A stretch of DNA of 64,000 bases from Cupriavidus oxalaticus (GTDB lineage: Bacteria > Pseudomonadota > Gammaproteobacteria > Burkholderiales > Burkholderiaceae): NCBI RefSeq assembly GCF_016894385.1, contig NZ_CP069811.1, positions 2,332,501 to 2,396,500 on the forward strand, in the 5' to 3' direction. The notes beneath the pieces were generated by a model. It saw only the letters and a list, made by a program, of their open reading frames with translations, did not search any database and was not told the origin of the DNA. The translations under genes and the position numbers were made by a program. Shown piece by piece: positions 3,149-49,054 of the stretch; position 1 is the first letter of the stretch; every line of letters begins with the position of its first letter.

Positions 3149-3175
3149 GCGAACCACCAGTTCGCATTGTGCGAA
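3149..3175. promoter_or_regulatory. Clustered inverted half-sites (GCGAA/TTCGC), possible operator
   Basis: Three half-sites lie in the gap before the 1722-2966 gene: GCGAAC at 3149, GTTCGC at 3160, and TTCGCA-TTG-TGCGAA at 3161-3175, the last being a perfect inverted repeat. The 233-bp gap has no supported ORF. An extra regulated promoter for the downstream CoA-transferase and Bug genes is plausible but no -10/-35 is convincing. Confidence 0.35.
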
Positions 3176-3199
3176 TTGCGGGTGGTGCGGGTCGTGCTG

Positions 3200-4384: not shown

Positions 4385-4568
4385 CTTCTTTAGCTTCCAT
4401 CTCACTGGTTGCCTCGTCTGGGCGAGACGACGGCTGATGGAATCGATCCTGACCGCCGGCCCTTCGCTGGTCAATCAAGCCTTCCAAGACGTTCCGTGCA
4501 TCGAAATTGCATGACCGGGGCGCCGACAACGAGACCGGATCGCCCCGGCCCGTTGTCGCCCTTCCCGC

Positions 4569-5399
4569 TCAGGCCGTGGTCGTGCGCGGGAACACCGGAG
4601 CGCGCTTCTCGCGGAACGAGGCCACGCCTTCCTTGACCTCCGGCCCGCCGAAGCCGAACATCTCCAGCGCCAGCGAAGCATCGAAGGTCGGGCCTGCCTG
4701 GCGCAGCCAGTTGTTCAGCGAATACTTGGTCCAGCGGATCGCCGACGGCGCGCCATTGGCCAGTCGCGTGGCGATCGATACCGCCGTGTCCTGCAGTTCT
4801 GCCTCATCCACGGCGAGCGACACCAGCCCCATCTGCTCCGCCTTCTCGCCGCTCACCGGCTCGCACAGCATCAGGTGGTACTTGGCCTTGGCCATGCCGC
4901 ACAGCAGCGGCCACACGATCGCGGCGTGATCGCCGGCGGCAACGCCGAGCCGCGTATGGCCGTCGACCAGCCGCGCGGTGCGCGCCGCCACCGAGATATC
5001 CGCCAGCAGCGCCGCTACCAGCCCGGCACCGACGGCGGAACCGTGGATCGCCGAAACGATCGGCTTGGAGCAATTGATGATGTTGTAGACCAGGTCTTTC
5101 GACTCGCGCCAGACGCGGGCGCGCGCGTCGAAGGAATCGATCATCTCTTCGACCATGTCGAAATCGCCGCCGGCGGAGAAGGCCTTGCCCGCGCCGCACA
5201 GCACCACGGCGCTGACGCTCGGGTCGGCATCGATATCGCGCCACACGCGGGCGATCTCGTCGTGGCCGGGTGCATCCAGCGCATTCAGGCGCTCGGGACG
5301 GTTCAGCGTGATGCGCAGGACGCCCTCGCTCGGGCGGTCAAACGCCAGGCTTGAATAGTTCTCATAGGCCGCGCCCGCGGCGGTACTGCTTTTCGACAT
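4569..5399 (-). CDS. Enoyl-CoA hydratase/isomerase family protein
   Basis: 276 residues of the crotonase fold. The ATG at 5399 is preceded by CAGGAGATTC, which decides it over the longer frame. Oxyanion-hole segments FSAGGD (about 74-79) and GSAVGAG (about 120-126) are present. The position of the first canonical catalytic Glu is not acidic ([11 protein letters not shown]), so hydratase activity is not assured and an isomerase, hydrolase or decarboxylase role is possible. It sits between an acyl-CoA synthetase and a CoA-transferase in the same direction and so should act on the CoA ester they make. Confidence 0.88.
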
Positions 5400-5486
5400 G
5401 GAATCTCCTGAATAAAAGTGCGGGGGCGTGTGAAGCGAACAAGAAATACACACGCTCCCGTCAATCAATGCGCCGTCACGGCGTCG

Positions 5487-7427
5487 TCAATGCGCGGCAG
5501 CGGCGCGAATCTCTTCGAGGGCTGGCGGGTTGTCCAGTGCCGACAGGTCGCCGGCAGGCAGGCCGGTGTAAACGCTGCGGATCACGCGGCGCATGATCTT
5601 GGAGCTGCGCGTCTTGGGCAGTTGCGCGACCACGTGGACCACGGACGGGCGGAACGGGCGCCCCAGCCGGCCGTCGACATGCTTGCTGACCGCGGCCGCC
5701 AGCGCCTCGTTCGACTGCGTCATGGCGGCCGATGGCACCAGGAACACAACCAGCTTCTGCCCCTTGACCGGGTCCTCCACGCCGATGGCGGCGGCTTCAG
5801 CGATCTCCGGCAGTTCGAGCAACACGTCCTCGATTTCGGCCGGGCCAAGGCGCTTGCCCGCCAGCTTGATGGTGTCGTCGGAGCGGCCCATCATGAACCA
5901 GGTGCCGTCGTCACGGCGCAGCGCCAGGTCGCCGTGCACCCAGAGGCCCGGCACCGTGTTCCAGTAGGTGTCGAGATAGCGCTCGTCGTCCTGCCAGAAT
6001 GACTGCGTCATGCCGACGAACGGCCCCCGGATCGCCAGCTCACCCACGGTATTGGTCACCGAGGTGCCGTCCGCATCCACCACGTCCACGGCCACCGACG
6101 GCGAGGCGGTGTTGAACCCGGCCGGGCTGATCGGCTTGACGATCACGCTGGACAACAGCGCCCCGGACACCTCGGTGCCGCCGGTGTAGTTGATGACCGG
6201 GCGGCGACCACTGCCGAACGCCTTCTGGAACCACAGGAAGTGTTCCGGAGCGATGCTTTCGCCAGCGGTGATCAGCAGCCGGATCGTCGAAGTATCGCCT
6301 TGCGTGGCGACGGCCTCGTTGGCGGCCAGGCCCCGGATCAGCGTCGGCGCGGAGCCGAAGTGCGTCACGCCGTAGCGCTCGACGATGCGCGACATGCGGG
6401 ACCAGTCCGGGTAGTCCGGGGCGCCGTCGTAACAGACCAGCGTCGCGCCGCGCAGCAACGCGCACGACATCACCAGCGTGCCGGCCACCCAACCCATGTC
6501 CGCCGGCCAGCAGAACACATCCTTCGGGCTGACATTGAAATGGATGGCCGAATCGTGCGCGATCTTCAGCGGGAAGCTGCCGTGGGTATGCACGGTGCCC
6601 TTGGGCTTCCCGGTGGTGCCGGAGGTATAGATGATCATGAAGGGATCGTCCGGCGACATCCGCTCGGGTGCGGGATCCGGCTGTGCGCTGGCCACCTGCT
6701 GCCAGTCGAGCACTGCATCGCCGAAGACGATCGCCTCGCCCGCATGCTTCCAGACCGTGGTGCCGATGTCCGGCAGACGCGACAGCGCCTCGTCGACCAG
6801 GCTGCGCGTATCGACCCATTTGCCGCGGCGCGAGAATCCGGTCGTGGCCACAAGCGCGCTGGCCGAGCATGACGACAGGCGCGACACGATCGCATCGACG
6901 CCGAAGCCGCTGAACAGCGGCACCGTCACCGCGCCGATCCATGCGACGGCCAGCGAAGTCACGGTCGCCTCGACGCCGTTTTCCACCAGCAGGCCAACCC
7001 GGTCGCCGCGCTTGACGCCGAGCGCCTTCAGGCCGCCGGCAAAGCCGGCTACATTGCGCGCCAGCTCGGCATAGCTCAGCTGCTCGACCGCGCCGCCCTC
7101 CTTTTCCGCCACCACGGCGGTGTGCGACGCCATCGCGGGATCGTCCGCCCACCTGAGCGCGGACTTGACCCAGTTGAGCTGCCCACCCGGGAACCACTTC
7201 GGGAACGGCTTGCCCTTGGAGGCATCCACATACTGCGTGTACGGCACGTCCCACGCCACCCCGCAGAAGTCGATGACGGCGTCCCAGTAGGCGTCGGGCT
7301 TCTCGTTGGAGAAGGCCAGCAATTCGTCGTAATCCTTCAGGCCCAGGCGCGTGACCAGCGCCGACACGTTCGCCGTGGCGATATCGTCTCCCGTAGGGAT
7401 CCAGTCATTGTGCAGAGAGTCACTCAT
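5487..7427 (-). CDS. AMP-forming acyl-CoA synthetase (acetyl/acetoacetyl-CoA synthetase-like)
   Basis: 646 residues, the usual length for the AcsA-type subgroup. The start at 7427 (MSDSLHNDWIPTG) is where family similarity begins. The adenylate-forming motif YTSGTTGKPKG, the INYTGGTEV substrate loop, VHGDLALRRDDGTW and the C-terminal KTRSSKIMRR with the acyl-adenylation lysine are all visible. It activates a carboxylic acid to its CoA ester and is the first structural gene of the 7427-658 set, downstream of an IclR regulator. Acetate, propionate or a longer acid are all possible. Confidence 0.92.
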   Translation of the reverse strand: MSDSLHNDWIPTGDDIATANVSALVTRLGLKDYDELLAFSNEKPDAYWDAVIDFCGVAWDVPYTQYVDASKGKPFPKWFPGGQLNWVKSALRWADDPAMASHTAVVAEKEGGAVEQLSYAELARNVAGFAGGLKALGVKRGDRVGLLVENGVEATVTSLAVAWIGAVTVPLFSGFGVDAIVSRLSSCSASALVATTGFSRRGKWVDTRSLVDEALSRLPDIGTTVWKHAGEAIVFGDAVLDWQQVASAQPDPAPERMSPDDPFMIIYTSGTTGKPKGTVHTHGSFPLKIAHDSAIHFNVSPKDVFCWPADMGWVAGTLVMSCALLRGATLVCYDGAPDYPDWSRMSRIVERYGVTHFGSAPTLIRGLAANEAVATQGDTSTIRLLITAGESIAPEHFLWFQKAFGSGRRPVINYTGGTEVSGALLSSVIVKPISPAGFNTASPSVAVDVVDADGTSVTNTVGELAIRGPFVGMTQSFWQDDERYLDTYWNTVPGLWVHGDLALRRDDGTWFMMGRSDDTIKLAGKRLGPAEIEDVLLELPEIAEAAAIGVEDPVKGQKLVVFLVPSAAMTQSNEALAAAVSKHVDGRLGRPFRPSVVHVVAQLPKTRSSKIMRRVIRSVYTGLPAGDLSALDNPPALEEIRAAAAH

Positions 7428-36312: not shown

Positions 36313-36510
36313 CTAGCGTGCCTTGCCCGCAGAGACCGGCGAGCCTGCACCCAGCCACATGAGATCCTTGCCAACTACCGCACGGCCGGAATACCCCTTT
36401 TGCGCCCTGCGCCACCGGCCTTCGCTGCTATCGGCGGGCGCCAGGTGCGACAAGACCAGGGTCTTCACTCCGCTGGCCTGCGCGACGGCGCCCACGGCCG
36501 CCTTCGATGC
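36313..36510 (-). pseudogene. C-terminal remnant of a metallo-beta-lactamase-fold hydrolase
   Basis: In the frame offset from the MFS gene, the segment AVAQASGVKTLVLSHLAPAD continues to GRAVVGKDLMWLG. This is the typical end of MBL-fold hydrolases (the HL pair being a metal-ligand motif). The N-terminal two thirds are missing and the piece overlaps the 3' end of the transporter gene. It marks a deletion that fused the two genes. The neighbouring stretch 36086-36312 shows no gene. Confidence 0.65.
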
Positions 36511-37900
36511 GGGTGCGGTCTGCCTCGACTTCAGGCTCCGGGATGTTGACCACCACCTGGACGCGCCCGGTCCGGTAGATGCCGATTCCCGCGACCACTG
36601 CCGGAATCGCCAGCAGAAGGTAGAGTGCCGCATTGCTCCAGCCTGCGGATAGCAGGAACGCGCCGCCGAGCGAGCCTGCGATAGCCCCCACCCGCCCGAT
36701 GCCGAGTGCCCATGCCACACCCGTGGCACGGCTTGAAGTCGGATAGAACGCCGACGCCAGCACATTGGCGCAGACCTGCGACCCGCTGACGCAAAAGCCG
36801 GTGACAAAGATCGCGGCCGCCATTGCCATGGGCGTGCTCACTGAAGCCAGGCAGGCCACGGCGAACGCCCCGAGCGTGTAGGCCCCGGCCACCACGGTGT
36901 ACGGATTGAACTTGTCCAGCAGCATGCCCAGCACGATGGCGCCCACCACGCCGCCTCCCTGCAGCAGCCCTGCGAGCATCGACGCCTCCTTCAGCGAGAG
37001 GCCACTGCGCTGGACCAGGATGGGCAGCCAGTTGATCATCAGGTACAGCAGCAGCAGGCTGCAGAAGAACGCCAGCCAGAGCCACAGCGTTCCCTGCCGG
37101 TAGCGCGGCGCGAAGAGCTGGCTGACTGGAGAGCTGGGTCCCTCGGGTTCGTCAGCGACGTAGCGCTGGCCGCTCGTGATCCGGCTTGCATCGATGCGTG
37201 CCAGGATGGCAGCGATCCGTGCCTGCATGCCTTCACGCGTGGCCAAATAGCGCACCGATTCCGGCAAAGCCAGCGCCAGCACCGGAACCAGCGCGAGCGG
37301 CAGCGCACCGCCCAATGCCAGCACGCCGCGCCAGCCGACATGCTCGATCAGGTAGGCAGTGACCACCCCACCCAGCGCAGAGCCGAGGGAAAACCCACAG
37401 AACATCACCGTCAGCAAAGTGCCGCGCCGACGCGAAGGGCTGAATTCCGCGGTCAACGTAATGGCATTTGGCATGGCGCCGCCAAGCCCGACCCCGGTCA
37501 GGAAGCGCAGTGCGATCATCCAACCGATGCCAGGCGCTGCGGCAGACGCGGCGCATGCCGCGCCGAACCAGGCCACCGACAGGATCAGCACGCGGCGTCG
37601 GCCAATGCGGTCGGCCAGCGGACCGCAGATGAAGGCGCCGGTCATCAGCCCAAGCAGGCCGGCGGAGAACAGCGGCCCCAATGCCACCATGGATAGCGAC
37701 CATTCGCTGCGGATATGGGGAGCAAGAAAGCCGATGATGGCGATGTCAAAGCCGTCCAGTGCCACGATCGTGAAGCACAATGCGATGGTGCGCCACTGCA
37801 GGGATGAGAGGCGCGCCGCGTCGATGAATTCGCGCACGTTGACGGCGGCACGCGCAGGCGTGCCGGCCGCCGTGCCTTGGGGGGCGGATGGGACAGTCAT
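36428..37900 (-). CDS. AAHS-type MFS transporter for aromatic acids
   Basis: 490 residues, 12 membrane segments. Features of the aromatic acid:H+ symporter group are LDGFDIAIIGFLAPHI in helix 1, GPLADRIGRRR (motif A), GVGLGGAMPNAITL and ALPESVRYL in the central loop. The last ~30 residues (from about RTRIEGGRGRRR) are Arg-rich, unlike the family, and are an out-of-frame reading of the MBL remnant, so the natural C-terminus was replaced. It is the last intact gene of the 43942-36428 operon and should import its aromatic acid. Confidence 0.9.
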   Translation of the reverse strand: MTVPSAPQGTAAGTPARAAVNVREFIDAARLSSLQWRTIALCFTIVALDGFDIAIIGFLAPHIRSEWSLSMVALGPLFSAGLLGLMTGAFICGPLADRIGRRRVLILSVAWFGAACAASAAAPGIGWMIALRFLTGVGLGGAMPNAITLTAEFSPSRRRGTLLTVMFCGFSLGSALGGVVTAYLIEHVGWRGVLALGGALPLALVPVLALALPESVRYLATREGMQARIAAILARIDASRITSGQRYVADEPEGPSSPVSQLFAPRYRQGTLWLWLAFFCSLLLLYLMINWLPILVQRSGLSLKEASMLAGLLQGGGVVGAIVLGMLLDKFNPYTVVAGAYTLGAFAVACLASVSTPMAMAAAIFVTGFCVSGSQVCANVLASAFYPTSSRATGVAWALGIGRVGAIAGSLGGAFLLSAGWSNAALYLLLAIPAVVAGIGIYRTGRVQVVVNIPEPEVEADRTRIEGGRGRRRAGQRSEDPGLVAPGARR

Positions 37901-37990
37901 GTTGTCTCCTGGGATGGTCAGCGCACAGCCGCTATGCTGCGGCTTGTGCTGATACAGAGAGTTTTGCGAGAATCTCTCGTAGGTGTACGG

Positions 37991-39148
37991 CTATGCCGCA
38001 GCTGGTGCGTCAACGGAATCGTGGTAGCCACCGGCTTCCACTCGGGCGATAAACTCCGCGTCGCGCTGGCACAGGTCTTCATGCGTGACCCTGCCCGTGC
38101 GCAGCATGTAGTCGTAGGCAAACGCCACCGGATCGAGGTGCATCTTGCTTTCGACCGACTCGTACCAATCGAGGCTGCGGCGCGCCGCGTCCTGGAACTT
38201 TGCCGAAGCGTCGCGCCGGCTGTCCTCGAACGTCCGGAACGCAGCCTGCACGTCGTCCCGATGTGCGCAGACGGCCTCGCACAGCGCGATTGCATCCTGC
38301 ATAGCCATGCGGGTGCCGGAGCCTAGCGAGAAATGCACGCTACGCAGCGCGTCGCCCAGCAATACCACCTTGCCATGTGACCAGTGTTCGTTGCGCACCA
38401 CGCTCGCCTGGAACCAGTTCGATCTGTTCCCCAGCAGGGATTGCCCGCCCAAGTCTCGCGCGAAGACCTGTTCGCAGAATGCACGGCTCTCATCTTCAGT
38501 AGCGGTGTCAAGGCCCGCGCGCTGCCAGGTGTCGGGATCCACTTCCACCAGGAAGGTCGATAATGTGTCGCTGTACTGGTACGCATGGGCGATGAACACC
38601 CCGTATCCGGTCTCCCGGAAGATCAGCGAGACCGGGTGAAACAGTTGATGGGTGCCGTACCAGGCGAACTTGTTGCGGCGCACCTCGAAGCTTGGCTGGA
38701 AATGCTCCGCCAGCCGGGTTCTTACCTCACTGTTGATACCGTCCGCTGCCACGATGATGTCGGCATCCGCCAGTTCGGCCGGATCGCTCACGCGGCTGCC
38801 GTAGACAATCTCGACGCCCGCTTCGGCACATGCTTCCTGCAGCACGCGCAACAGGTCAATGCGCGACGTGCGCGAGAAGTGGTTGTTGCGCAGCGGTACC
38901 CGCACCCCTTGGTGGGTCACCTCCATATAGTCGCAACGCTGATGATGCGCGGTGAATTTCCGGAAGAACGCCCGATCGGCGTCCTGCAGGAACGACAGCG
39001 CGATGTCGGAGAACACGACACCCCAGCCATACGTGGCGCCCGCTTCGTTGCGCTCGTGTACGACGATACGGTCTTCAGGATGGCGCTGCTTGAGCAGCAG
39101 GGGGAAGTACAGGCCGGCGGGGCCGCCTCCGATGACGACGACATTCAT
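37991..39148 (-). CDS. FAD-dependent monooxygenase, salicyloyl-CoA 5-hydroxylase-like
   Basis: 385 residues from the ATG at 39148. The FAD-binding GGGPAG (7-12), the YGWGVVFSD segment (40-48) characteristic of salicyloyl-CoA and 2-aminobenzoyl-CoA hydroxylases, AADGINS (135-140) and the GDA motif (265-267) are present. The characterised homologues are often fused to an old-yellow-enzyme-like domain; this one stands alone. It would hydroxylate an aromatic acyl-CoA with NAD(P)H and oxygen. The AMP ligase two genes upstream could make that substrate. Confidence 0.87.
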   Translation of the reverse strand: MNVVVIGGGPAGLYFPLLLKQRHPEDRIVVHERNEAGATYGWGVVFSDIALSFLQDADRAFFRKFTAHHQRCDYMEVTHQGVRVPLRNNHFSRTSRIDLLRVLQEACAEAGVEIVYGSRVSDPAELADADIIVAADGINSEVRTRLAEHFQPSFEVRRNKFAWYGTHQLFHPVSLIFRETGYGVFIAHAYQYSDTLSTFLVEVDPDTWQRAGLDTATEDESRAFCEQVFARDLGGQSLLGNRSNWFQASVVRNEHWSHGKVVLLGDALRSVHFSLGSGTRMAMQDAIALCEAVCAHRDDVQAAFRTFEDSRRDASAKFQDAARRSLDWYESVESKMHLDPVAFAYDYMLRTGRVTHEDLCQRDAEFIARVEAGGYHDSVDAPAAA

Positions 39149-39158
39149 GGTAAGCCTC

Positions 39159-39917
39159 TTACTTGCGTGCCGGCGCCAGGGCCGCGCCGGCATTGGGAAC
39201 GATGGGAGCCAGATCCAGGTGCTCCAGCATCTGGCCCACCGTGCAGACAGCGGTGGACGTGACCGGCAGGCCGATGGCGTCCTGCGCGGCCTGGATGGCC
39301 GGCAGGGATGGCATCTGCACGCAGGCCGACAGCACGACGACGTCGGCATTGGCGGTGTTCAGGCGCCTGACGTCTTCCAGCAACTGCATGGGATTGCGTC
39401 GGCCGACTTCGAGGTTGTCGGGGATCTCGAACGACAACGCATCCAGCACTTCAATGCCTTCATGCTCGATGTACCGGACCACGGCCTCGGTCAGAGGCTT
39501 CATGTAAGGGGCCATCAACGCAATGCGGCGCGCGCCCATTGACTTCAGGCCCGTCACGAGCGCGCCGGCCGACGTCATGACCGGCGCATTGCAGTGGTTC
39601 TCGCGCGCCACGCGCAGCAGGTCCTGCTCCACCTGTCGGTGATAGCCGGGGCCCATCGCCATGATGGCAACCAGGCAGGCCGTGCTCATCACGTCGACGC
39701 GCGCATCGGCCAGTTCGGCGGCACAGCGCAGTCCCTCGCGGTTCATGGCTTCCAGTTCTTCGCGTACCACGCGATGCATGCGCATGCGGCTCGAATGGAA
39801 AGTGAAACGTTCCGGCAGGATCTGTTCCCGTGCGCGCAGCATGGCGGGAATCTCGGTCTCCATCGTCGTGTTGGAGCTGGGCACGATCTGCCCGATACGG
39901 TAGGTACGACTGTTCAT
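39159..39917 (-). CDS. maiA: Maleate cis-trans isomerase
   Basis: 252 residues of the Asp/Glu racemase superfamily. The near-invariant opening YRIGQIVPSSNTTMETEIPA and FTFHSSRMRMH match maleate isomerases of the MaiA/NicE type. The two catalytic cysteines are Cys81 in STACLVAIM and Cys199 in LSACVQMPS. It converts maleate to fumarate in the cytoplasm, the last step of the maleamate branch of nicotinate breakdown and of some gentisate routes. No nic genes are around it, so maleate must arise from the aromatic substrate of this operon. Confidence 0.9.
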   Translation of the reverse strand: MNSRTYRIGQIVPSSNTTMETEIPAMLRAREQILPERFTFHSSRMRMHRVVREELEAMNREGLRCAAELADARVDVMSTACLVAIMAMGPGYHRQVEQDLLRVARENHCNAPVMTSAGALVTGLKSMGARRIALMAPYMKPLTEAVVRYIEHEGIEVLDALSFEIPDNLEVGRRNPMQLLEDVRRLNTANADVVVLSACVQMPSLPAIQAAQDAIGLPVTSTAVCTVGQMLEHLDLAPIVPNAGAALAPARK

Positions 39918-39975
39918 GCTGGTCAGCCTTGATGGGATGATGGGGGGTGCTGGTGTGCTACGGCGTCTGTGCAGG

Positions 39976-41673
39976 TCATGCCGACTTCCTCCCCGATTCG
40001 GTGGCTTCCATTTCGAGCTGGCGCGCGACCATGGCCCGCAGCGCGGCCTTGTCGACCTTGCCGACCCGGGTTACCGGAAACTCCACGACCACTTCGATAC
40101 GCTCGGGACACTTGAACTTCGCCAGGCCCTGCGCCACCAGGAACCCGGCCAGCTCGGTGACATCTGGCGCCACATGGCCCGCGCGCAGGATCATGTAGAT
40201 GCAACCCTTCTCGCCGTACAGCGGATCCGGCATCGCGACGAGCTTGGCGTCCGCGACGGCGGGATGCCGGCTGACGTACGCCTCCACTTCTTCCGAGCCA
40301 ATCTTTTCGCCGCCGCGGTTCACGTTGTCGCGCAGGCGGCCTTCAAACGCGAAGCAGCGGTAGCCGTCGACCACGTGCTCGGTCATGAGGTCGCCGGAGC
40401 GCACGAATCCATCCGCGGTCAGTGACTGCGCGGTGGCCTCCGGTGCCTTGTAGTAGCCGCGCAGGCTGGACGGGCCGCGAAAGCAGAGCTCGCCCGGCGT
40501 TCCCGGCGCTGCTGCCTCGTCCGTGCCGGGTACCAGCAGGCGGAGATCGTCATCGGGGCAACCGGAGAAGCCCTGGGTGCGATGCCGCATCGTGGCGGGA
40601 AAGCGCGCGCCGGCGCCAAGCAGCAGTCCTTCCGTCGTGCCGAACAGGTTGAAGCACGGTACGCCGAGATGCGCTTCGAGCGCGTCGGCACGCGTCATCG
40701 TGCCGAACAGTTCCAGCGATGAAAGATCGTGCTGCGCAATGTCCTGGTACGCGATCATCTGCGGCGCGACCGGCCCGATCGACATGCCGTGCGTGACGCG
40801 GTGCTCCGCGATCAGTTCGAGCATGCGCTGGATGTCGACGCGCGGCATCAGCACCGAGGTCATGCCGCCGGCCACGGCCGGTACCAGCACGTAGAGCTGG
40901 CCGGCATTGTGCAGCAGCGGCAGCGACCAGATCAGGCGGCTTTGCGCGGTCTGGCCGAGCTGGCGCATGCTGGCCAGCGCATGGCCGGTGTACTCGGCGT
41001 GGAAGCGCGGAATGATCTTCGGTACGCCGGTCGTGCCGCCGGACAACTGGAAGCTGAGCACGTCCTCGCTGCCGATGAGGACACCGGCCAGCACCTCGAT
41101 GGCCTGTTCGTAAGAGATCGTATCGATCAGTGCATCCATGCCGTGTTCGGCGAGCGGGCCCTGTGCGGCGGAACTGACGCCACGCGCGACGATCAGATGC
41201 CGGATCGACGGATAGCGCTGCGCCATGCCGCGAGCGAAGCCGGTCAGGTCGAACGCACTGAAATCGGCTTGCACGAAATAGGCGCGCGGCTCGGACAGCG
41301 CCGAAAGCTGTCCGATCTCGACTTCACGGTACTGCGGCACCGCGCACACCGGAACAACGCCAGCCTTGTAGCAACCCATCAGCGCGATGACGGTGTCGAT
41401 CGTGGTCCCCATCTGGAAGATGGCACGATCGCCGGGCCGAAGACCGAGCCGATGCAGCGCGGCGCCGAGGCGCTCGCTGCGCGCGTCGAGTTCGGCGAAG
41501 GTGATCGAACGCTCGTCGCTGATGAACGCCGGCTGGTGCGGCACTCGCCGGGCGGTCTTGCGCAGTGCGCCGCCGAGCGTGTCGTCGACCCATGCGCCGC
41601 TTGCGAAGTACCGCGCCGCGTCGGCAGGCGGACAGTACGCCACGCCCTCAATCGGAAAATGAATACCGGTCAT
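39976..41673 (-). CDS. Aryl-acid AMP ligase/CoA ligase (DhbE/SdgA-like)
   Basis: 565 residues. The opening YCPPADAARYFASGAWVDDTLG is typical of 2,3-dihydroxybenzoate/salicylate-AMP ligases. Adenylation motifs are LSGGTTGVPK (210-219), NLFGTTEGL, RSGDLM, RDNVNRGGEKIGSEEVE and the C-terminal GKVDK lysine. It activates an aromatic carboxylic acid as the adenylate, with transfer to CoA the likely second step. It is 15 nt downstream of the small unknown gene and upstream of the maleate isomerase, so it probably starts the pathway. Confidence 0.9.
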   Translation of the reverse strand: MTGIHFPIEGVAYCPPADAARYFASGAWVDDTLGGALRKTARRVPHQPAFISDERSITFAELDARSERLGAALHRLGLRPGDRAIFQMGTTIDTVIALMGCYKAGVVPVCAVPQYREVEIGQLSALSEPRAYFVQADFSAFDLTGFARGMAQRYPSIRHLIVARGVSSAAQGPLAEHGMDALIDTISYEQAIEVLAGVLIGSEDVLSFQLSGGTTGVPKIIPRFHAEYTGHALASMRQLGQTAQSRLIWSLPLLHNAGQLYVLVPAVAGGMTSVLMPRVDIQRMLELIAEHRVTHGMSIGPVAPQMIAYQDIAQHDLSSLELFGTMTRADALEAHLGVPCFNLFGTTEGLLLGAGARFPATMRHRTQGFSGCPDDDLRLLVPGTDEAAAPGTPGELCFRGPSSLRGYYKAPEATAQSLTADGFVRSGDLMTEHVVDGYRCFAFEGRLRDNVNRGGEKIGSEEVEAYVSRHPAVADAKLVAMPDPLYGEKGCIYMILRAGHVAPDVTELAGFLVAQGLAKFKCPERIEVVVEFPVTRVGKVDKAALRAMVARQLEMEATESGRKSA

Positions 41674-41688
41674 GATGGTCTCCGGCGT

Positions 41689-41961
41689 TCATGCCACCGC
41701 GGCATTGCGCGGCACGATGCGCACGATATCGCGGTCGAATCGTTCGATCCTGCCGTCGAGCCCGCCAGTGAAGAGGCCGTACCAGACCGCGGGCTTCAGG
41801 CCAAGGGCGCGGCGCCCGAACTCGACCGGCTCATCGGAAGCGATCACGGTGTAGTCACCAAGGTCGCTGAGGCGGCATGCCGGCAGGCTGCGCGCCGCTT
41901 CCGTCAGTGAGGCGAACTCGGGCACGTTCAGCACAAAGATGCGCAGGGCGGACTGGCTCAT
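41689..41961 (-). CDS. Small conserved-looking protein of unknown function
   Basis: 90 residues starting at 41961, where ATG overlaps the stop of the VOC gene (ATGA), so translation is coupled. The sequence (MSQSALRIFVLNVPEFASLTE, LGDYTVIASDEPVEFGRRALGLKPAVWYGLFTGGLDG) is compact, has no signal peptide or metal motif, and looks like a small alpha/beta protein. Family not recognised. Its place between VOC and ligase genes suggests an accessory subunit or catalytic partner of this pathway. Confidence 0.75.
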   Translation of the reverse strand: MSQSALRIFVLNVPEFASLTEAARSLPACRLSDLGDYTVIASDEPVEFGRRALGLKPAVWYGLFTGGLDGRIERFDRDIVRIVPRNAAVA

Positions 41962-42614
41962 GCGTGACACTCCTGGTCCAGGTTCAGGCGGCGGCCGAGG
42001 AGCTCTGCCTTGCGCACCCAGATATCGTCGATCGACGTCACGCGCGCTTGCGTGGCACGGGCTTCGTCCTCCAGTTCGATGGCCGCGGCGAGCGTCGCAT
42101 CGGCGTCGCGCGCATCGAGCGCCGCCAGCGGCCGCAGCTTGCGCGTGATCTCGATGAAATAGCCGTTCGGGTCGCGGAAGTAGATCGACTCGATCACCTC
42201 ATGCGCAGTTTCGGCGGACACCACCACGCCGCGCGCTTCCAGGCGCGTCTTCCATGCCAGTAATTCTTCTTGCGTATCGACCAGCCAGGCAGTGTGGGTG
42301 GCGTCGAACACGTGGTCGTCCGGGAGCGGCGGCCGGCTGTCGCGGCTGGCGAGCGCTTCGGGCTCGTCACTGCCGAGGTAATAGAAGAACGCGATCGTGC
42401 TGCCCTTGCCGCTGTCGAAGAAGAAGTGCAGGAAGTCGGGGTGCGTCGAAGGCCCCCAGCCGCGCGCCGAGATCGTGTGGATCAGCGGCAGGCCCAGGAT
42501 GTCGCGATAGAACGTGACGGTTTCCTTCAGGCGCCAGGTGGGCCGGGCGGTATGGTCGACGCCGTGCAGTCGCAGTGGCGCGGCGGCGTCGGACGGGGCG
42601 GTCCTTGCATGCAT
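41958..42614 (-). CDS. VOC-superfamily protein (glyoxalase/extradiol dioxygenase fold)
   Basis: 218 residues from the ATG at 42614, which CGGAGACACAAC supports. Two VOC repeats are visible: LHGVDHTARPTWRLKETVTFYRDILGLPL with HFFFD, and HTAWLVDTQEELLAWKTRLEARG with SIYFRDPNGYFIEITRKL. His21 and the late Glu are candidate metal ligands. It could be a ring-cleaving dioxygenase, an isomerase or a lyase. The operon otherwise lacks a ring-cleavage enzyme, which makes it a candidate for that step. Confidence 0.83.
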   Translation of the reverse strand: MHARTAPSDAAAPLRLHGVDHTARPTWRLKETVTFYRDILGLPLIHTISARGWGPSTHPDFLHFFFDSGKGSTIAFFYYLGSDEPEALASRDSRPPLPDDHVFDATHTAWLVDTQEELLAWKTRLEARGVVVSAETAHEVIESIYFRDPNGYFIEITRKLRPLAALDARDADATLAAAIELEDEARATQARVTSIDDIWVRKAELLGRRLNLDQECHA

Positions 42615-42661
42615 CGTTGTGTCTCCGGATCGGAATGGGTCGTGTGTGTGTGTCGGGTGCG

Positions 42662-43942
42662 CTATTGCGGGAAGGTCTCGCGCAGCCATGTCTGCAGCAG
42701 GCGTCCCGCCGCGTAGCGGCCGGGTTCCTCGCCTTTGGCCAGCGCGCGGCCGTGGTGGTCGCCGCGAACGCGGTGGTGCTGCTTGTCAGTGCTTGCAATG
42801 CCGTGAAAGATGTCCGCGATGACGCTCGGGAAGCAGGCCTGGTCCGCCGTGTATTCGATCAGCAGCGTGGGCTGGTGAATGGCCGGGGCCGTACGGGACA
42901 GCGCGGCGTTCGACGACAGGCCTGACCACGTCGACAACCAGCTTTCGGGCGAGCACACGCGCGCGAAGCCGACTGAACCGTAGTTGGATGCAAACGGGTC
43001 CGCGCCCCAGAGCGAGCCGTACTTGCGGTCCGACGGATCGAGCGACAGGTCGAAGCAGCGCAGGTCGGCATCGGTGCGCCAGACGGTGAAGAGCTGGGTA
43101 TGGGCGGCGCGGCGCCGGATGGCATCGCTGACGGAACCGGGATTGCGCTTCACTTCGGCACGAGCGTCCATGCGCTCGGCAATCATCGTCCTGGCCAGTT
43201 CGTCGAGGCGCTGCACCCGTGCCATCTGCGCGGCGCGATAGCGCGCGACAAAGTCGGCACGATAGCTGGAGGACTCAGGGGCCGGTGCAAAGCCATTGGC
43301 TGCGGAGAATGCATCGAGCGCCGCGTCGACAGACAGCGGGTCGCGCTCGTCGGCCACAGCAGGATCGATGCAGCCCTGCAGCAGCACGCCCTGGCCGGGG
43401 TGTGGCGCGACAAACACGACGCCATCCACCGCCGGCAGCAGCGCCGACGCAAGATTCGTGGCGCGGCCGCCGGGCGTCCGGCCGATACGCGCTTCGGGCG
43501 CGGCATTCGATTGCTGAACGTACAGGGCATACAACCCGCTGCCTCCCGAATTGCCCAGCAGCACGATGCGGCGAAAGCCCGCTTCACGCAGGTAGCGCAC
43601 ACCGGCCGCCACGTCGTACAGCGCAAATTCATGTTCCAGGCGCTGGTCGTTCCCCACTGAACGCGGGGACTGCGACCACGCTGCATAGCCCGCTTCTACG
43701 ATGTCGGGAATCAGGTAGTGGCAAGCCATGAACTCACGTGGATGCATGATGCAAACCACGGTATCCGGCTGGCCTGCGGCATAGAGCGAGCCACCCGTGG
43801 CCGCACCATCCTCGGTGCGCAGCACGACGTTGCGCGTCACGGTGCCGGGAGGCACGTCACGCGGATTCCAGTCCGTGTTGAGAAAGCCCGCAATAGGGCC
43901 TGAAAGCGCGGGCGAAGCGCTGGGAGGCGTCTTGCTTGTCAT
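42662..43942 (-). CDS. Alpha/beta hydrolase, first gene of the aromatic operon
   Basis: 426 residues; the second ATG (43942) has the better distance to GGAG, with 43948 as alternative. Fold markers are VVCIMHPREFMACHYLIPDIVEAG, nucleophile elbow GNSGGSG, VVFVAPHPGQG and the late RGDHHGR with the catalytic His. Longer than simple hydrolases because of a ~150-residue cap. It would cleave a C-C, ester or thioester bond of a pathway intermediate; which one is not evident. Confidence 0.83.
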   Translation of the reverse strand: MTSKTPPSASPALSGPIAGFLNTDWNPRDVPPGTVTRNVVLRTEDGAATGGSLYAAGQPDTVVCIMHPREFMACHYLIPDIVEAGYAAWSQSPRSVGNDQRLEHEFALYDVAAGVRYLREAGFRRIVLLGNSGGSGLYALYVQQSNAAPEARIGRTPGGRATNLASALLPAVDGVVFVAPHPGQGVLLQGCIDPAVADERDPLSVDAALDAFSAANGFAPAPESSSYRADFVARYRAAQMARVQRLDELARTMIAERMDARAEVKRNPGSVSDAIRRRAAHTQLFTVWRTDADLRCFDLSLDPSDRKYGSLWGADPFASNYGSVGFARVCSPESWLSTWSGLSSNAALSRTAPAIHQPTLLIEYTADQACFPSVIADIFHGIASTDKQHHRVRGDHHGRALAKGEEPGRYAAGRLLQTWLRETFPQ

Positions 43943-43987
43943 CGTCATTCACTCCGTTTTTTACAGCATAGTCGATTTTTTGACACA

Positions 43988-44037
43988 TACGTAAAATTTT
44001 TTTCGAGCGCGTTGAAACTAGCGGAGAAAGTTACGTA
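43988..44037. promoter_or_regulatory. Facing TACGTAA repeats, putative TetR operators
   Basis: TACGTAA at 43988-43994 and TTACGTA at 44031-44037 form a wide inverted pair in the AT-rich divergent region between the hydrolase operon and the TetR gene. TATGCT on the minus strand nearby could be the operon -10. Confidence 0.45.
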
Positions 44038-44160
44038 CTAAGCATGAGACGGCAGCAGCCAGGACCGCCAAGATGCCGATCCGGAACTGGCGTCCAGCCG
44101 ACTTTTTGTTTATCGTGATGAGCTTCTCGACGCCTGCGTCGAAAATCCGAATGACAATCT

Positions 44161-44874
44161 ATGGCGAAGGCACAGACGAAGAGCGATGCGCTGCGGGACT
44201 CGATCCTGGAAGTGGCGACCCGCCTGTTCATCGAGCGCGGTTTTGACGGCACCGGACTGAACGACATCGCCGACGCCGTGGGATTGAGCCGCCCGGCCCT
44301 GTACTACTACTTCAAGAGCAAGGAAGCGATTCTTGAGGAACTGACCACCGCGGTGACGCGCACCGCCGCCGACCTGGCTACCGAGGCAATCCCCGAAGCC
44401 ATGCGCACGCCTTCCGGCATCCTGCGCCACCTGGTCATGCGTCACGCGATGCTGATCCTGTCCCACCCGTTGCAGTTCAGGGTGGTGGAGCGCAATGAGA
44501 ACAACCTGCCGCCAAAGCAGCGCAAGCTGGCCGAGCAATCCCGGCGCGCCGTGCTAGCTCAGTTCCGGCAGGCCATTGAATCCGGTATCGACCAGGGGAA
44601 GTTCCGCGTCATGGATGCCAAGGTCGCTGCGTTCTCGATCATCGGCATGTGCAACTGGACCGCGTGGTGGTTCAATCCATCCGGGCAAGTTTCCATGGGT
44701 GAAGTGGCACGCCAGATTGCCGACATGGCATTGGGCTCAGTGGAACTGCCCTCGAGCCGCAAGCTCGACCGAGCCGGGCCGGCTGCCATACTTCAACTCC
44801 TGCGCGACGACCTGACACTGCTGGAGCGCAGCCTGGACTCGTCGGCAGCGGGCAAGACGGGCCGGCATGAGTGA
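44161..44874 (+). CDS. TetR-family transcriptional regulator
   Basis: 237 residues. The DNA-binding domain is LRDSILEVATRLFIERGFDGTGLNDIADAVGLSRPALYYYFKSKEAILEEL; the C-terminal ligand domain follows with MRHAMLILSHPLQFRVVERNENNLPPKQR and GMCNWTAWWFNPSG. The family type with a TetR_C KstR2-like C-terminus often senses CoA esters (general knowledge, not shown here). It is divergent from the 43942-36428 operon and is the likely pathway-specific repressor. No strong ribosome site precedes the ATG. Confidence 0.92.
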   Translation: MAKAQTKSDALRDSILEVATRLFIERGFDGTGLNDIADAVGLSRPALYYYFKSKEAILEELTTAVTRTAADLATEAIPEAMRTPSGILRHLVMRHAMLILSHPLQFRVVERNENNLPPKQRKLAEQSRRAVLAQFRQAIESGIDQGKFRVMDAKVAAFSIIGMCNWTAWWFNPSGQVSMGEVARQIADMALGSVELPSSRKLDRAGPAAILQLLRDDLTLLERSLDSSAAGKTGRHE

Positions 44875-45037: not shown

Positions 45038-46063
45038 CTATTCGGGCTTGAGGCCGATCGAGCGGATCAACTTGTCCATCTTCGCATCCTCTTGCCTCAG
45101 CTTTTGCACTAATGCATCGGGCGTTCCGCCACTTGCGGGCGTAACGCCAATTGCCTGCATGCCTTGGGTCACCTTGGCTTCGGCCAGCACTGCTCCAATT
45201 TCCCGGTTTAGGCGCGTGACGACTGCAGGCGGCGTGCCCTTCGGCGCGAGGATCGCAAACCAGAATTCGCTTTCATAGCCGGGGGCAATTTCTCCGATTG
45301 CCGGCACGTTAGGTTGCTCCGCCAATCGTCTGGATCCTGACACTCCCAGCGCTATCACTTTGCCGCTTTTGATGTAGGGCTCAGCGGTGCTCATTACTAT
45401 GAACATGCTGTCTACATGCCCACCCAGCAGGTCAGCAAAGGCTTGGGCGCCCCCCTTATATGGAACGTGGACCTGTTTAAGTCCGAGTTGCTGGTCCAGC
45501 ATTGCCATGAAGAGATGATGAGGCGAGCCAGAGCCCGCTGAGCCATATGTCACCGTCCCAGGCCGCCCCCGGACTTTTGCGAGGTATTCCGGAAGTGTCC
45601 GTACGCCCAGCGACGGATTGACGACCAGCACCATTGGCGACGACCCCAACTCGACCACCGGCATCAAGGCGTTGGTTGGCTGAAACGCGCCAGCCGGCAT
45701 GAGGCGCGGCGTCACTGTGAGGTAGGAGTCGGCCGCAATCACCAACGTATGCCCGTCTGCTGGCGCTTTGGCGGCAAGCATCATTCCGACCGTTCCTCCT
45801 GCTCCGGGCTTGGAGTCGACCACCACCGGCTGACCCAGGCGCGTGCCCAGGCGCTGAGCAACTAACCGGGCGATGCCATCCATGGCACCTCCTGCAACGG
45901 CAGGAACAATCAACGTAATAGGCTTGGCTGGAAACGGGTCAGCGTGCGCCGATGCGATCCCAAGTCCGCTGAACCCAACGGTTGCCATGGCCACAAGCAT
46001 CAGCCGGCGCAGCGGACTGCTGCTGACGGCATACTGCCGCCTCATGTAAGTTTTGGGGGGCAC
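45038..46063 (-). CDS. Bug-family (TctC-like) periplasmic solute receptor
   Basis: 341 residues from a GTG at 46063, chosen because CGGAG lies 6 nt before it; the ATG at 46045 has no ribosome site. Signal peptide LRRLMLVAMATVGFSGLGIASAHA is followed by DPFPAKPITLIVPAVAGGAMDG, VVVDSKPGAGGTVG, KAPADGHT and VHVPYKGGAQAFADLLGG. It follows a sulfatase by 80 nt on the same strand, with a small hairpin (46083-46106) between. It probably captures the sulfatase product or its sulfated precursor. No TctAB nearby. Confidence 0.92.
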   Translation of the reverse strand: MPPKTYMRRQYAVSSSPLRRLMLVAMATVGFSGLGIASAHADPFPAKPITLIVPAVAGGAMDGIARLVAQRLGTRLGQPVVVDSKPGAGGTVGMMLAAKAPADGHTLVIAADSYLTVTPRLMPAGAFQPTNALMPVVELGSSPMVLVVNPSLGVRTLPEYLAKVRGRPGTVTYGSAGSGSPHHLFMAMLDQQLGLKQVHVPYKGGAQAFADLLGGHVDSMFIVMSTAEPYIKSGKVIALGVSGSRRLAEQPNVPAIGEIAPGYESEFWFAILAPKGTPPAVVTRLNREIGAVLAEAKVTQGMQAIGVTPASGGTPDALVQKLRQEDAKMDKLIRSIGLKPE

Positions 46064-46143
46064 TTTTTTCTCCGGTTCAACAGGCAGAGCTCTGGTGGTC
46101 TCTGCCACTTTGTAAGAGCACGTCAACAATACTTCCACTGGCG

Positions 46144-47745
46144 CTAGGCTCTCCCCAACGGAAACGGCGCCCTGTCATCGGCCAGCATCAACTCACGCGC
46201 CATCACTTCAAACATCTGCGCGCGCACCTTTGCATGCCGGGGATCCTCGAACAAGTTGACCAACTCATTCGGGTCATTACGCAGGTCATAGAGCTCCGCC
46301 CATCCAGGTTGGTCATACAGCGTCAATCGGTGTGAGGCGGTTACCACCGTACGGGCTCGAACCGGCTTGTCCAGGCCAAATGTTGGCGCATGTCCGTCTT
46401 CCTCCACCAGCACTGCGTCACGCACGCCGGCGTGTTGACCGTCGATCAGCCCAAGCAGGCTGCGGCCCTGCATGCCATGGAACGGCGCAAGCTTTGCGCG
46501 CGCCAGGACAGTAGCCGGAATATCGATCGTTCCTGCCAGTGCATCGGTCGCTGCGCCTTCAGTATCGCGGTACGGATCTGCCCAGATAAACGGCACGCGG
46601 ATTAGGCTCTGATAATGCAGCGCAGACTTGAGCAACAGCCCGTGGTCGCCCATGAAATCGCCATGATCGCTGGTGAACGCTACGACCGTATTCCGGTCCA
46701 TACCCAGCGCCCGCAACCCTGCCATCAGTCTTCCCACCACGTCGTCGATCATGCTGATCATTCCGTACGTGAGTGCCAGGGCTTCTTTCGCCTCGCGCTC
46801 CCTGGCCGCGAAGCTGACTGTGGAATGGATACGCCCCCTGCCCTGCGCACGTTCGTTGTGCAAGGCGGCTACCGGTGCAAACAGCGAATCCTCCGCCTGG
46901 TAGAAAGATGCCGGCAACACCATGTCGTCCGGATCGTACATATCCCAGTATTTGCCTGGCGGTGTAAAGGGGTGATGCGGGTCAGCAAACGAACAGTGCA
47001 GGAAGAATGGTCGATCACCCCGTGCAGCTTGCTCAAGGAAAGCCTCCGCCCTATCGCCGACCCAGGCACTGGGATACTGTTCCTCCGGCACACGGGTCCG
47101 ATACGCCTGGGGCGCGGTATAGCGGCTGTCCGGCAGCGCATTCTTTGGCCCGCGGAGCTGATCGATATCACCAGCGACTTGCCGCAGCCATCGCGCATAG
47201 TCGCCTTCGACCATGTCCCCATGCATCGTGCACAGGTCCACGTGATCGAAGCCGTAATAAGGTGTCTGCACGCGATGCGCCGGATCCTGGCGCCATTTGC
47301 GCAGCAGCTCCATGTCATAGCCGCCTTCGCCCCAGCGACCCGTCACAGCATCAGCAAGCGCCGGCGGCGGTGCCTGCAGCCCTGCAGGCACCGGGTCGCG
47401 AGGCTCTTCCGGCGGCATGTCGGTCATGTTCTGCAAATGGCATTTGCCGACCAGGCCTGTGTAGTAACCGGCATCGCGCAACAGGTCAACAAAGGTGGTG
47501 CTGTTGCGGGCAAGAGGAATGCCATTGCAGCGCGTACCGTGCAGGGATGGCATCCGCCCCGTCATCAGCGAAGCGCGGTTCGCCATGCAGACCCCGGTTG
47601 CTACATAGAAGCGGTCAAAGCGGCGGCCCCTGACGGCAAGCGAGTCAATGTGGGGGGTGCGGATACGGACATTGCCATAGCAGCCGAGATGATCGGCACG
47701 CTGCTGGTCGGTTGTGATGAGTAGGAAGTTTGGTTTGGAAGGCAT
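46144..47745 (-). CDS. Formylglycine-dependent sulfatase/phosphonate monoester hydrolase family
   Basis: 533 residues of the alkaline phosphatase superfamily. Metal site LLITTDQQRADHLGCYG (Asp13), the active-site loop CMANRASLMTG with Cys53-x-Ala-x-Arg57 (Cys to be converted to formylglycine), and SDHGDFMGDHG are visible. The third position is Ala instead of the more common Pro. No signal peptide, so a cytoplasmic enzyme cutting a sulfate or phosphonate ester. Divergent LysR gene and downstream Bug gene indicate a regulated catabolic unit for an organosulfate. Confidence 0.9.
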   Translation of the reverse strand: MPSKPNFLLITTDQQRADHLGCYGNVRIRTPHIDSLAVRGRRFDRFYVATGVCMANRASLMTGRMPSLHGTRCNGIPLARNSTTFVDLLRDAGYYTGLVGKCHLQNMTDMPPEEPRDPVPAGLQAPPPALADAVTGRWGEGGYDMELLRKWRQDPAHRVQTPYYGFDHVDLCTMHGDMVEGDYARWLRQVAGDIDQLRGPKNALPDSRYTAPQAYRTRVPEEQYPSAWVGDRAEAFLEQAARGDRPFFLHCSFADPHHPFTPPGKYWDMYDPDDMVLPASFYQAEDSLFAPVAALHNERAQGRGRIHSTVSFAAREREAKEALALTYGMISMIDDVVGRLMAGLRALGMDRNTVVAFTSDHGDFMGDHGLLLKSALHYQSLIRVPFIWADPYRDTEGAATDALAGTIDIPATVLARAKLAPFHGMQGRSLLGLIDGQHAGVRDAVLVEEDGHAPTFGLDKPVRARTVVTASHRLTLYDQPGWAELYDLRNDPNELVNLFEDPRHAKVRAQMFEVMARELMLADDRAPFPLGRA

Positions 47746-48075
47746 GGCAGGTCTCTTTTAGCAATGCATGCACCACAAGTCCCGCGTAGCAGTAGAACCA
47801 CTCGGGCTGACATGGCACCCAGAAGCTCATCTCGCGGTGCAACTTGCCTCAATCGCACATTGGTCAACCGGCCGGAACGTGCGGCCTGACCGCAGGTGGA
47901 CATGTCTTCCACCGACGAACTCAAAAATCTCGAGTGCCGATGTAAGGCCCACCAATCCTGGTGCAGGGAGCATGCATGATCTCCGCTATCGTTGTTCGAT
48001 GAATTTGATGTGTTGCTTGCGGAGCGAGTATAGAGATGGGGCAATAAATAAACGATTGAAATAAATTCCAATCTG

Positions 48076-48092
48076 TATAACCTTCGGTTATA
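48076..48092. promoter_or_regulatory. LysR-type T-N11-A operator
   Basis: TATAACCTTCGGTTATA is a perfect palindrome around TTC and contains the T-N11-A core. It lies 20 bp before the LysR start in the 367-bp divergent region (47746-48112) shared with the sulfatase gene; the rest of that region shows no ORF. Confidence 0.65.
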
Positions 48093-48112
48093 TCGATTCC
48101 TGCTCGCCACAC

Positions 48113-49054
48113 ATGAACCACTCACCTTTAGCCCACCGCCTCAAGCTCAGCCAGTTGCGGCTGCTCATCGGCATCGCCGATACCGGCTCACTTCTAGGTG
48201 CGGCAGATGCACTTCATATCAGCCAGCCGGCCGCAACCAAAGCACTGAGACAGATGGAACAAGCCGTGGGGGAAGTGCTGGTGAGCCGGAGCAGCGGAGG
48301 TAGCGTGCTGACCGACACCGGGCTGATCTTGTGCAGGCGTGCACGGCTTGTACTTGCTGAACTTCGGGATGTGGAAGAAGAGCTAGGCCTCTGGCACTCC
48401 GGAGGCGCTGGCCATGTGACGGTCGGGGCGCTGCCAGTTGCCACGCCATGGCTGCTCCCCGAGGCGTTGACATCATTGGCCGCCAACGCGCCGCGCATTA
48501 CCGTCCGGGTCATAGAGGGCAATTCGGATAGCATGTTCGAGGAATTGAAGACAGGCCGGATCGACATGCTGGTAGGCCGCTTCTGGCCGGGAGACGACGC
48601 GGACCTACTCACGGAGGTGCTGTACGAGTCGACCTTTCGCATAGGCGTGCGCGCGGCGCATCCGCTAGTGGGCAAACGCCGCCTGCGGCTAGGCGACCTG
48701 ATGGGCCTTCAGTGGATACTGCCACCGCCAGGCACGCATACGCGGGCGGCGCTGGAAAGCATGTTCCGCACAACCGGACAAGGACTGCCGCCCAATCCGG
48801 TCGAAACCACTTCATTCCTGGTCATGCGCTCGCTCATGCTGCAGACGGACATGATCTGTCCGTTCCCGGTTGAGATCCTGCATGCCGACGCCCAACTAGG
48901 CCTGATCCGATTCCTACCTTTGAACCTGGACATGAGGCTGCCGCCTGTTGGTGTGGTGCGACACGCCAAGCGGGTCTTGTCGCCCGCGGCGGATACGGTC
49001 ATTGAGCGACTGCGCCAGGCGGGTGCGCGCGCTGCACAGACTTACCAACGTTAA
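48113..49054 (+). CDS. LysR-family transcriptional regulator
   Basis: 313 residues. The N-terminus SQLRLLIGIADTGSLLGAADALHISQPAATKALRQMEQAVGEVLVSR is the winged helix; HVTVGALPVATPWLLPEAL and GRIDMLVGRFWPGDD belong to the effector domain, like GbpR/CbbR-type relatives. It is divergent from the sulfatase and Bug genes and has a palindromic LysR box next to its own start, so it should control that operon and itself. Confidence 0.92.
   Translation: MNHSPLAHRLKLSQLRLLIGIADTGSLLGAADALHISQPAATKALRQMEQAVGEVLVSRSSGGSVLTDTGLILCRRARLVLAELRDVEEELGLWHSGGAGHVTVGALPVATPWLLPEALTSLAANAPRITVRVIEGNSDSMFEELKTGRIDMLVGRFWPGDDADLLTEVLYESTFRIGVRAAHPLVGKRRLRLGDLMGLQWILPPPGTHTRAALESMFRTTGQGLPPNPVETTSFLVMRSLMLQTDMICPFPVEILHADAQLGLIRFLPLNLDMRLPPVGVVRHAKRVLSPAADTVIERLRQAGARAAQTYQR

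Follow-up and report, generated by a model that had tools for sequence, protein, structure and literature searches.

The operon described here, from Cupriavidus oxalaticus, raises the question of how genes for an aryl-acid ligase, a flavoprotein related to salicylyl-coenzyme A (CoA) 5-hydroxylase and a maleate isomerase might together degrade an aromatic acid when Pfam finds no cupin domain among the seven gene products. It lies in a 64,000-nucleotide window, the whole stretch of DNA analysed (positions 2,332,501 to 2,396,500 of contig NZ_CP069811.1, assembly GCF_016894385.1); positions below are those of the window. Seven minus-strand genes (36428-43948), all with open frames, face a TetR-family regulator gene on the plus strand, and the gene order reported in an earlier note on this DNA was borne out. 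They encode an alpha/beta hydrolase (HYD), a VOC protein, a 90-residue small protein (SML), an aryl-acid ligase (LIG), a maleate isomerase homologue (MAI), a flavin adenine dinucleotide (FAD) monooxygenase homologue (FMO) and a transporter (MFS). The seven-gene set with its TetR gene is a real operon-type cluster. From sequence comparison and structure models, we rate it somewhat better than an even chance that the operon serves the CoA-dependent, hydrolytic degradation of a salicylate-type (2-hydroxybenzoate) acid with ring cleavage by the VOC enzyme.

In this pathway, MFS would import the acid, LIG would convert it to an acyl-adenylate and then to the CoA ester, and FMO would hydroxylate the ester at position 5. 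A thioesterase acting in trans would free the gentisate-type acid, which the VOC enzyme, made as two polypeptides from a split gene, would open by a 1,2-cleavage that depends on a metal, giving a product of the maleylpyruvate type. HYD would then cleave a C-C bond to give maleate and pyruvate, MAI would convert maleate to fumarate, and TetR would regulate the operon. 1,2-Cleavage of gentisate yields maleylpyruvate. For HbzF, it has been established that maleylpyruvate is hydrolysed to maleate (PMC5658364), and because this hydrolysis yields maleate and pyruvate, a maleate isomerase would be useful. The earlier note had sketched a similar course, from aromatic acid through CoA ester, hydroxylation and ring opening to maleate; for an ortho-hydroxyaryl acid, our analysis lends this sketch inferential support.

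A scan of genome contigs with the 90-residue protein, which adjoins VOC, as query gave 63 loci, some of them cut by contig ends and two (L060 and L064) sharing one contig. Matches to HYD, VOC, SML, LIG and FMO occurred together in 57 loci, MAI matched in 46 and all six in 42; matches were also found for HYD in 61, TetR in 59, MFS in 29 and a TctC-type receptor in 24. The joint occurrence of five genes in 57 loci fetched through SML alone argues that the set is not a chance association. The neighbourhood check proposed in the earlier note found the five-gene core elsewhere, while the transporter was matched in fewer than half of the loci. The genera represented include Cupriavidus, Pandoraea, Caballeronia, Achromobacter, Bordetella, Variovorax, Azospirillum and Bradyrhizobium.

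Outside the 63 loci, VOC- and HYD-like genes were found by similarity, together with ligase, flavoprotein or isomerase genes (not always all, the ligase and flavoprotein by annotation only), on plasmids of Variovorax, Tistrella, Pseudosulfitobacter, Rhodococcus, Streptomyces and Tsukamurella, and on a Mycobacterium plasmid such genes were scattered across about 20 kb. These plasmid sets span other classes and phyla, and six of eight annotated sets list a maleate-isomerase or Asp/Glu-racemase gene; none is listed in the set stretch of the Rhodococcus qingshengii and M. avium plasmids, and the gene tables of the plasmids are incomplete. Two actinobacterial plasmids carry a P450 and a VanB-like reductase gene near the set. 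Within the family, HYD was detected at E ≤ 1e-60 in at least 37 of 249 genomes, two of the matches being weak at 209-216 bits, and at E ≤ 1e-100 in at least 1 of 299 genomes drawn from the phylum, namely its own genome; both counts are lower bounds because at most seven (family) and six (phylum) candidates per genome were scored. By this distribution, the gene set is an accessory trait.

Comparison across the loci clarified the nature of the small protein. VOC and SML share one reading frame in 43 of the 63 loci and occupy separate frames in the other 20 (all six Cupriavidus loci, eight of nine Pandoraea loci and L059-L064), as judged by reading frame, with L005 and L006, whose VOC frame is irregular, both counted as split. 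Over 79 aa, SML matches the C-terminus of P0113, a natural protein of 299 aa, at 52% identity, and the VOC relatives form two length groups of about 194-218 and 287-322 aa, two others having 251 aa (best 120 of 2046 relatives). In all 63 loci SML is fused to VOC or lies no more than 300 bp from it, a count that covers SML homologues within these loci. The shared frame and the identity to P0113 both indicate that SML belongs to the VOC enzyme as its C-terminal domain, split off here at an ATGA (41961-41958) that fuses the VOC stop with the SML start. The earlier note had recorded this overlap correctly and had suggested that VOC and a small partner open the ring; the role of VOC in this suggestion is supported by inference, and the separate partner is not supported, being a detached VOC domain. 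An independent small subunit like LigA was set aside on the same grounds.

The VOC protein is predicted to be the catalytic part of a gentisate-type ring-cleaving dioxygenase. All 34 aligned homologues keep its His-His-Glu metal-ligand positions (His18, His104 and Glu152 in L050, corresponding to His21, His107 and Glu155 here), and the model is of VOC type, although the triad also occurs in many VOC proteins without dioxygenase function. The nearest PDB sequence is 9u42, titled homogentisate 1,2-dioxygenase and from Acinetobacter, with an E-value of 5e-14 by single protein (next entry 2.5e-4) and 7e-20 in a profile search (next entry 1e-8). On an Acinetobacter baumannii plasmid (L097, 6004-6552), a VOC gene of 182 aa, equal in length to 9u42, comes after fahA and maiA in a cluster with hppD nearby and no hmgA annotated in the stretch; its product would fit a VOC-type homogentisate dioxygenase. 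A model of a fused VOC homologue reached a mean pLDDT of 90.6.

The ligase gives a clue to an ortho-hydroxybenzoate as the substrate. The best PDB matches of LIG are the salicylate-AMP ligases 5wm2 (2e-85) and 7tyb (2.4e-85), with the dihydroxybenzoate (DHB)-AMP ligase 1md9 third (2.3e-79), and its best NCBIfam model is DHB-AMP ligase (337 bits against a cut-off of 723.55). Its His-Asn pair, placed at the ortho-hydroxyl, is kept in the three reference ligases and in every one of the set members that were aligned, 13 out of 63 available with the window included. FMO is a predicted salicyl-CoA 5-hydroxylase: it matches the N-terminal half only of the PRK08255 salicylyl-CoA 5-hydroxylase profile (401.6 bits, cut-off 1078; positions 1-382 of 768), lacks the C-terminal oxidoreductase half, and also resembles VioD (242.6 bits, cut-off 620; PDB entry 3c4a, E 1.2e-59). 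The YGWGVVFSD segment cited in the earlier note was found at residues 40-48 (39031-39005).

Genes that flank the set in two loci, L033 and L044, and are arranged differently there, point in the same direction. They encode a VanA_C-type Rieske oxygenase, a reductase and the glutathione-independent formaldehyde dehydrogenase FdhA (over cut-off). For the L044 Rieske oxygenase the best match is dicamba O-demethylase 3gb4 (8e-70), followed by the unnamed Rieske protein 7qwt (2e-66); the L033 enzyme is 79% identical to that of L044, and a Rieske gene in L059 is more distant (40%). Dicamba is an ortho-methoxybenzoate, so such demethylation would give a 2-hydroxybenzoate, pointing to ortho-hydroxybenzoates as substrates.

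At the end of the pathway, MAI is a predicted maleate isomerase, matching 4fq7 with an E-value of 1.4e-80 and aligning both active-site cysteines; the Cys81 and Cys199 named in the earlier note are present. HYD, which has no Pfam family over cut-off, is predicted to be the C-C hydrolase of the ring-opened product. Ser134, Asp369, His398 and His399 are invariant in 26 aligned homologues, and the model (mean pLDDT 85.7) shows an alpha/beta-hydrolase with a long helical insert that recovered general alpha/beta hydrolases only (best 50 matches). Pfam found no FAA_hydrolase domain in HYD, whose fold is that of an alpha/beta hydrolase.

Several observations weigh against the salicylate-type reading. 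For the VOC protein, 9u42 ranked first by E-value in Foldseek, yet at 28% identity and with poor superposition on the VOC model (TMq 0.23, rmsd 17.6), so that structural closeness to 9u42 failed as support. Among the best 50 matches of a fold comparison with the N-terminal part of the model, extradiol dioxygenases and methylmalonyl-CoA epimerases tied at Z 12-13 and 9u42 was absent; since both classes score about the same, the fold does not decide VOC function. The title of 9u42, the closest solved VOC protein by sequence, would suit a homogentisate-type route, in which a 2-hydroxyphenylacetate-like acid would be converted through maleylacetoacetate to maleate and acetoacetate. We give this route little credence, because 2-hydroxybenzoates are the substrates of the nearest ligases, the demethylase beside the set most resembles an enzyme for an ortho-methoxybenzoate, and no fahA-, maiA- or hppD-type gene belongs to the window set. 

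Other adverse points concern the enzymes around the ring-cleavage step. FMO falls under the cut-off of every family listed, MAI has no match in 17 of the 63 fetched loci (some ended by a contig edge), the demethylase and FdhA occur in only 2 of the 63, and the LIG loop after His-Asn is unlike the salicylate/DHB pocket loop and one alignment column shorter. The loop, which His-Asn aside differs from that of salicylate ligases and varies between set types, speaks for a less likely alternative, a substituted 2-hydroxybenzoate (for example 6-substituted) as the substrate, which the same steps would convert to maleate and a substituted 2-oxo acid. Three diverged sets in one genome favour this alternative as well. 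Besides the window operon, the genome holds sets at C1:292-299 kb (L094) and C1:1377-1383 kb (L095), inspected over C1:288000-306000 and C1:1368500-1388000, each with VOC and SML in one frame, a thioesterase, MAI and a match to a TctC-type receptor; a frame change breaks the FMO of L094. Between these two sets, identity is 83-86% across the four genes compared, and their identity to the window is 37-39% for LIG, 41% for FMO (L095 only), 51% for VOC plus SML, 53-58% for HYD and 66-67% for MAI. The divergence of LIG and FMO (39 and 41%), greater than that of HYD, VOC and MAI (53, 51 and 66%), fits different acids feeding a common end. LIG and FMO were also lowest between the window and L029, a locus of its own type (63 and 62%, compared with 71% for HYD, 67% for VOC and 79% for MAI), and in L021-L023 the flavoprotein alone is distant (42-43%). 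However, unequal rates of evolution could produce the same identity pattern, and no gene of the set indicates a particular substituent.

A thioesterase is missing in the window and in 18 of the 63 loci, which also counts against the salicylate-type reading. The other 45 loci carry the gene, usually between LIG and FMO and of the 4HBT_2 type (L050 protein), as counted by tblastn at 1e-5 with six queries, excluding the short relics of L007 and L028 and including partial matches in L060 and L064. An 18-codon frame in the window is tentatively a thioesterase relic: it reads MTCTDAV where intact L014 reads MICTEYV, and its ATGA overlap with the LIG stop is a start type shared with many intact thioesterase genes. 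Clearer deletion relics are seen in L016 (which keeps MISTEH and PHAGETQ), L007 (C-terminal part) and L028 (a 37-aa piece); in L003 and L004, MAI starts directly after the LIG stop, and the frame in that gap of L006 has no clear likeness to a thioesterase. Two thioesterase paralogues at 44-45% identity are encoded elsewhere in the genome, and the lost function is presumably supplied in trans.

These losses bear on an alternative in which the VOC enzyme would open the ring of gentisyl-CoA, HYD or the thioesterase would handle the CoA-bearing product and free gentisate would never form. The sets of alphaproteobacteria, betaproteobacteria and actinobacteria would then encode a gentisyl-CoA dioxygenase whose C-terminal domain is specific to its family, and an alpha/beta C-C hydrolase and MAI would act after it. 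The rest of the set is mostly kept in the 18 loci with an absent or relic thioesterase, the relics of L007, L016 and L028 differ, and a second enzyme kept beside a cupin gentisate dioxygenase would be explained. We nevertheless regard both the route and this assignment as unlikely, given that hydrolysis would yield an unusual 2-oxoacyl-CoA, that 45 of the 63 loci keep the thioesterase and that two paralogues remain in the genome.

At a distance of about 1.5 Mb from the operon, the genome also encodes a cupin gentisate 1,2-dioxygenase that scores over cut-off (L085), beside FAA hydrolase, flavin-hydroxylase-like and MFS genes. The statement in the earlier note that there is no gentisate dioxygenase therefore holds at the locus and fails for the genome. 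This cupin cluster weakens a simple gentisate reading, unless it serves other inducers, and on a Streptomyces plasmid a gentisate-type cluster (by annotation) adjoins the set, so that a second gentisate cleavage looks redundant. If the operon only made gentisate for the distant cupin cluster, VOC, HYD and MAI would belong to a side reaction. This seems to us very improbable, as HYD is matched in 61 and MAI in 46 of the 63 loci and both types are also found with VOC on plasmids from other classes and phyla. In favour of the salicylate-type reading, the best match to a salicylate 1-monooxygenase in the genome, at 186.6 bits, stays below the cut-off of 446.35 bits. Picolinate and 2-aminobenzoate, listed in the earlier note among candidate acids, are a poorer fit. 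Nicotinate/picolinate chemistry was set aside because the genome has no M29-type ring-cleaving gene (0 matches to PF02073, the M29 family of NicX) and no amidase is among the seven genes, and anthranilate because another locus (C2:2.48 Mb) encodes a PRK08255 protein of full length that scores over cut-off.

Comparison with described systems places the salicylate-type reading among familiar routes. SdgA and SdgB are further parts of the CoA-dependent salicylate pathway. With that pathway (SdgC, covered in PMC13215587 and PMC6460240, and gentisate dioxygenase SdgD) the operon shares an aryl-AMP ligase, a flavoprotein related to salicylyl-CoA-5-hydroxylase and, in most relatives, a thioesterase. 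It differs in having VOC, an alpha/beta hydrolase and MAI instead of a cupin gentisate dioxygenase and in an FMO without the second PRK08255 half. With 9u42, a VOC-type homogentisate 1,2-dioxygenase by its entry title, the operon protein shares the VOC family, the His-His-Glu positions and a 2,5-dihydroxyaryl acid as expected substrate type; 9u42 differs in a 182-aa chain too short for the extra C-terminal domain, in its operon, and in the low identity and poor superposition given above. HbzF belongs to the FAA family. Direct hydrolysis of maleylpyruvate to maleate would be common to the operon and the HbzF route of Pseudomonas alcaligenes (PMC5658364), whereas HYD is an alpha/beta hydrolase and maleate would here be passed to fumarate by MAI. 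The maleate isomerase 4fq7 shares family and both cysteines with MAI, and the operon context is not nicotinate degradation. Mhp-type pathways combine a FAD hydroxylase, a ring-cleaving dioxygenase and an alpha/beta hydrolase; the order of chemistry would be the same, but the operon differs by CoA activation and by hydroquinone-type rather than catechol-type cleavage.

The pathway logic is familiar, and VOC-type cleavage with an alpha/beta-hydrolase step would be new. Alcaligenes aquatilis QD168 has a gene annotated SdgC yet showed no growth on salicylate (PMC6460240), which urges caution in reading function from such a flavoprotein alone. AromaDeg places gentisate dioxygenases in the cupin class (PMC4250580), and we recognised no description of this gene set in searches of an open-licence library, including PMC13215587, PMC6460240, PMC5658364, PMC4250580 and PMC11705938. 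If true, the salicylate-type reading would bring a class of enzyme not so far recognised into salicylate-type catabolism and assign a role to proteins whose present names say no more than VOC family or hypothetical. It would also account for a maleate isomerase that does not belong to nicotinate metabolism.

Table 1. Genes and gene relics of the operon region, with window positions and supporting matches
Feature	Position	Strand	Evidence
TetR-family regulator	44161..44874	+	TetR_N 1.2e-19, TetR_C_24 5.4e-29
HYD, alpha/beta hydrolase, 428 aa, Ser134/Asp369/His398-399	42662..43948	-	Homologue alignment, model
VOC protein, 218 aa, His21/His107/Glu155	41958..42614	-	PF00903 1.5e-15
SML, 90 aa, motif LKPAVWYGLFTGG	41689..41961	-	No family assignment by Pfam/NCBIfam
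LIG, predicted aryl-acid AMP/CoA ligase, 565 aa, His255-Asn256	39976..41673	-	AMP-binding family; PDB matches
Possible 4HBT-type thioesterase relic, 18 codons, tentative	39923..39979	-	ATGA overlap with LIG stop
MAI, predicted maleate cis-trans isomerase, 252 aa, Cys81/Cys199	39159..39917	-	Amdase/maleate-isomerase-like; 4fq7 E 1.4e-80
FMO, predicted single-domain FAD monooxygenase, 385 aa, YGWGVVFSD	37991..39148	-	PRK08255 N-half and VioD matches
MFS, aromatic-acid/H+ symporter-like	36428..37900	-	PcaK NF053517 383 bits (cut-off 770), TIGR00895 379 (cut-off 418.55)
MBL-fold hydrolase gene relic, 74 aa	36316..36531	-	Overlaps MFS 3' end

The start assigned to VOC is the second ATG, supported by homology, of an open reading frame that is itself open up to 42689, and the FMO start is likewise backed by homology and differs from that of the longest frame. 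The genes are clustered, as the earlier note held, but gaps of 58 bp between LIG and MAI and of 90 bp between FMO and MFS make the operon looser than the tight one it described. No promoter or operator was found between TetR and HYD; between 36000 and 44400 a single promoter-like match was obtained, outside this gap and against 1.2 expected by chance, and of three inverted-repeat pairs, the 10-nt one at 44124-44145 is not convincing as an operator.

Adjoining the set but outside it (45038-49054) are a TctC-receptor gene (Pfam) and, by eye, sulfatase-like and LysR-like genes. The MBL relic is 71.6% identical to residues 315-388 of an L004 gene, and an MBL-fold hydrolase gene lies near the set in L004, L007, L059, L073 and L094 (331-388 aa matches), with a partial match of 101 aa in L095; such an enzyme might release the acid from a conjugate. 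In L026 (Eoetvoesiella caeni), two long open reading frames, hydantoinase A/B-type by eye, lie near the set (2697-6791), and the fetched stretch gave no match to a maleate isomerase. On the Variovorax SRS16 plasmid, VOC (38%) and HYD-like (39%) genes adjoin a FAD oxidoreductase gene, and on a Neorhizobium plasmid VOC (33%) adjoins genes annotated as alpha/beta hydrolase and FAD monooxygenase. No AMP-ligase gene lies between these genes, and both plasmids have CoA-ligase genes within about 6 kb. They are possibly related ring-cleavage modules for other aromatics, the arrangement being simply compatible with a module for ring cleavage and hydrolysis. Tripartite tricarboxylate transporter genes stand beside the VOC, hydrolase and FAD-hydroxylase genes in L071 and L080 (Variovorax and Neorhizobium plasmids).

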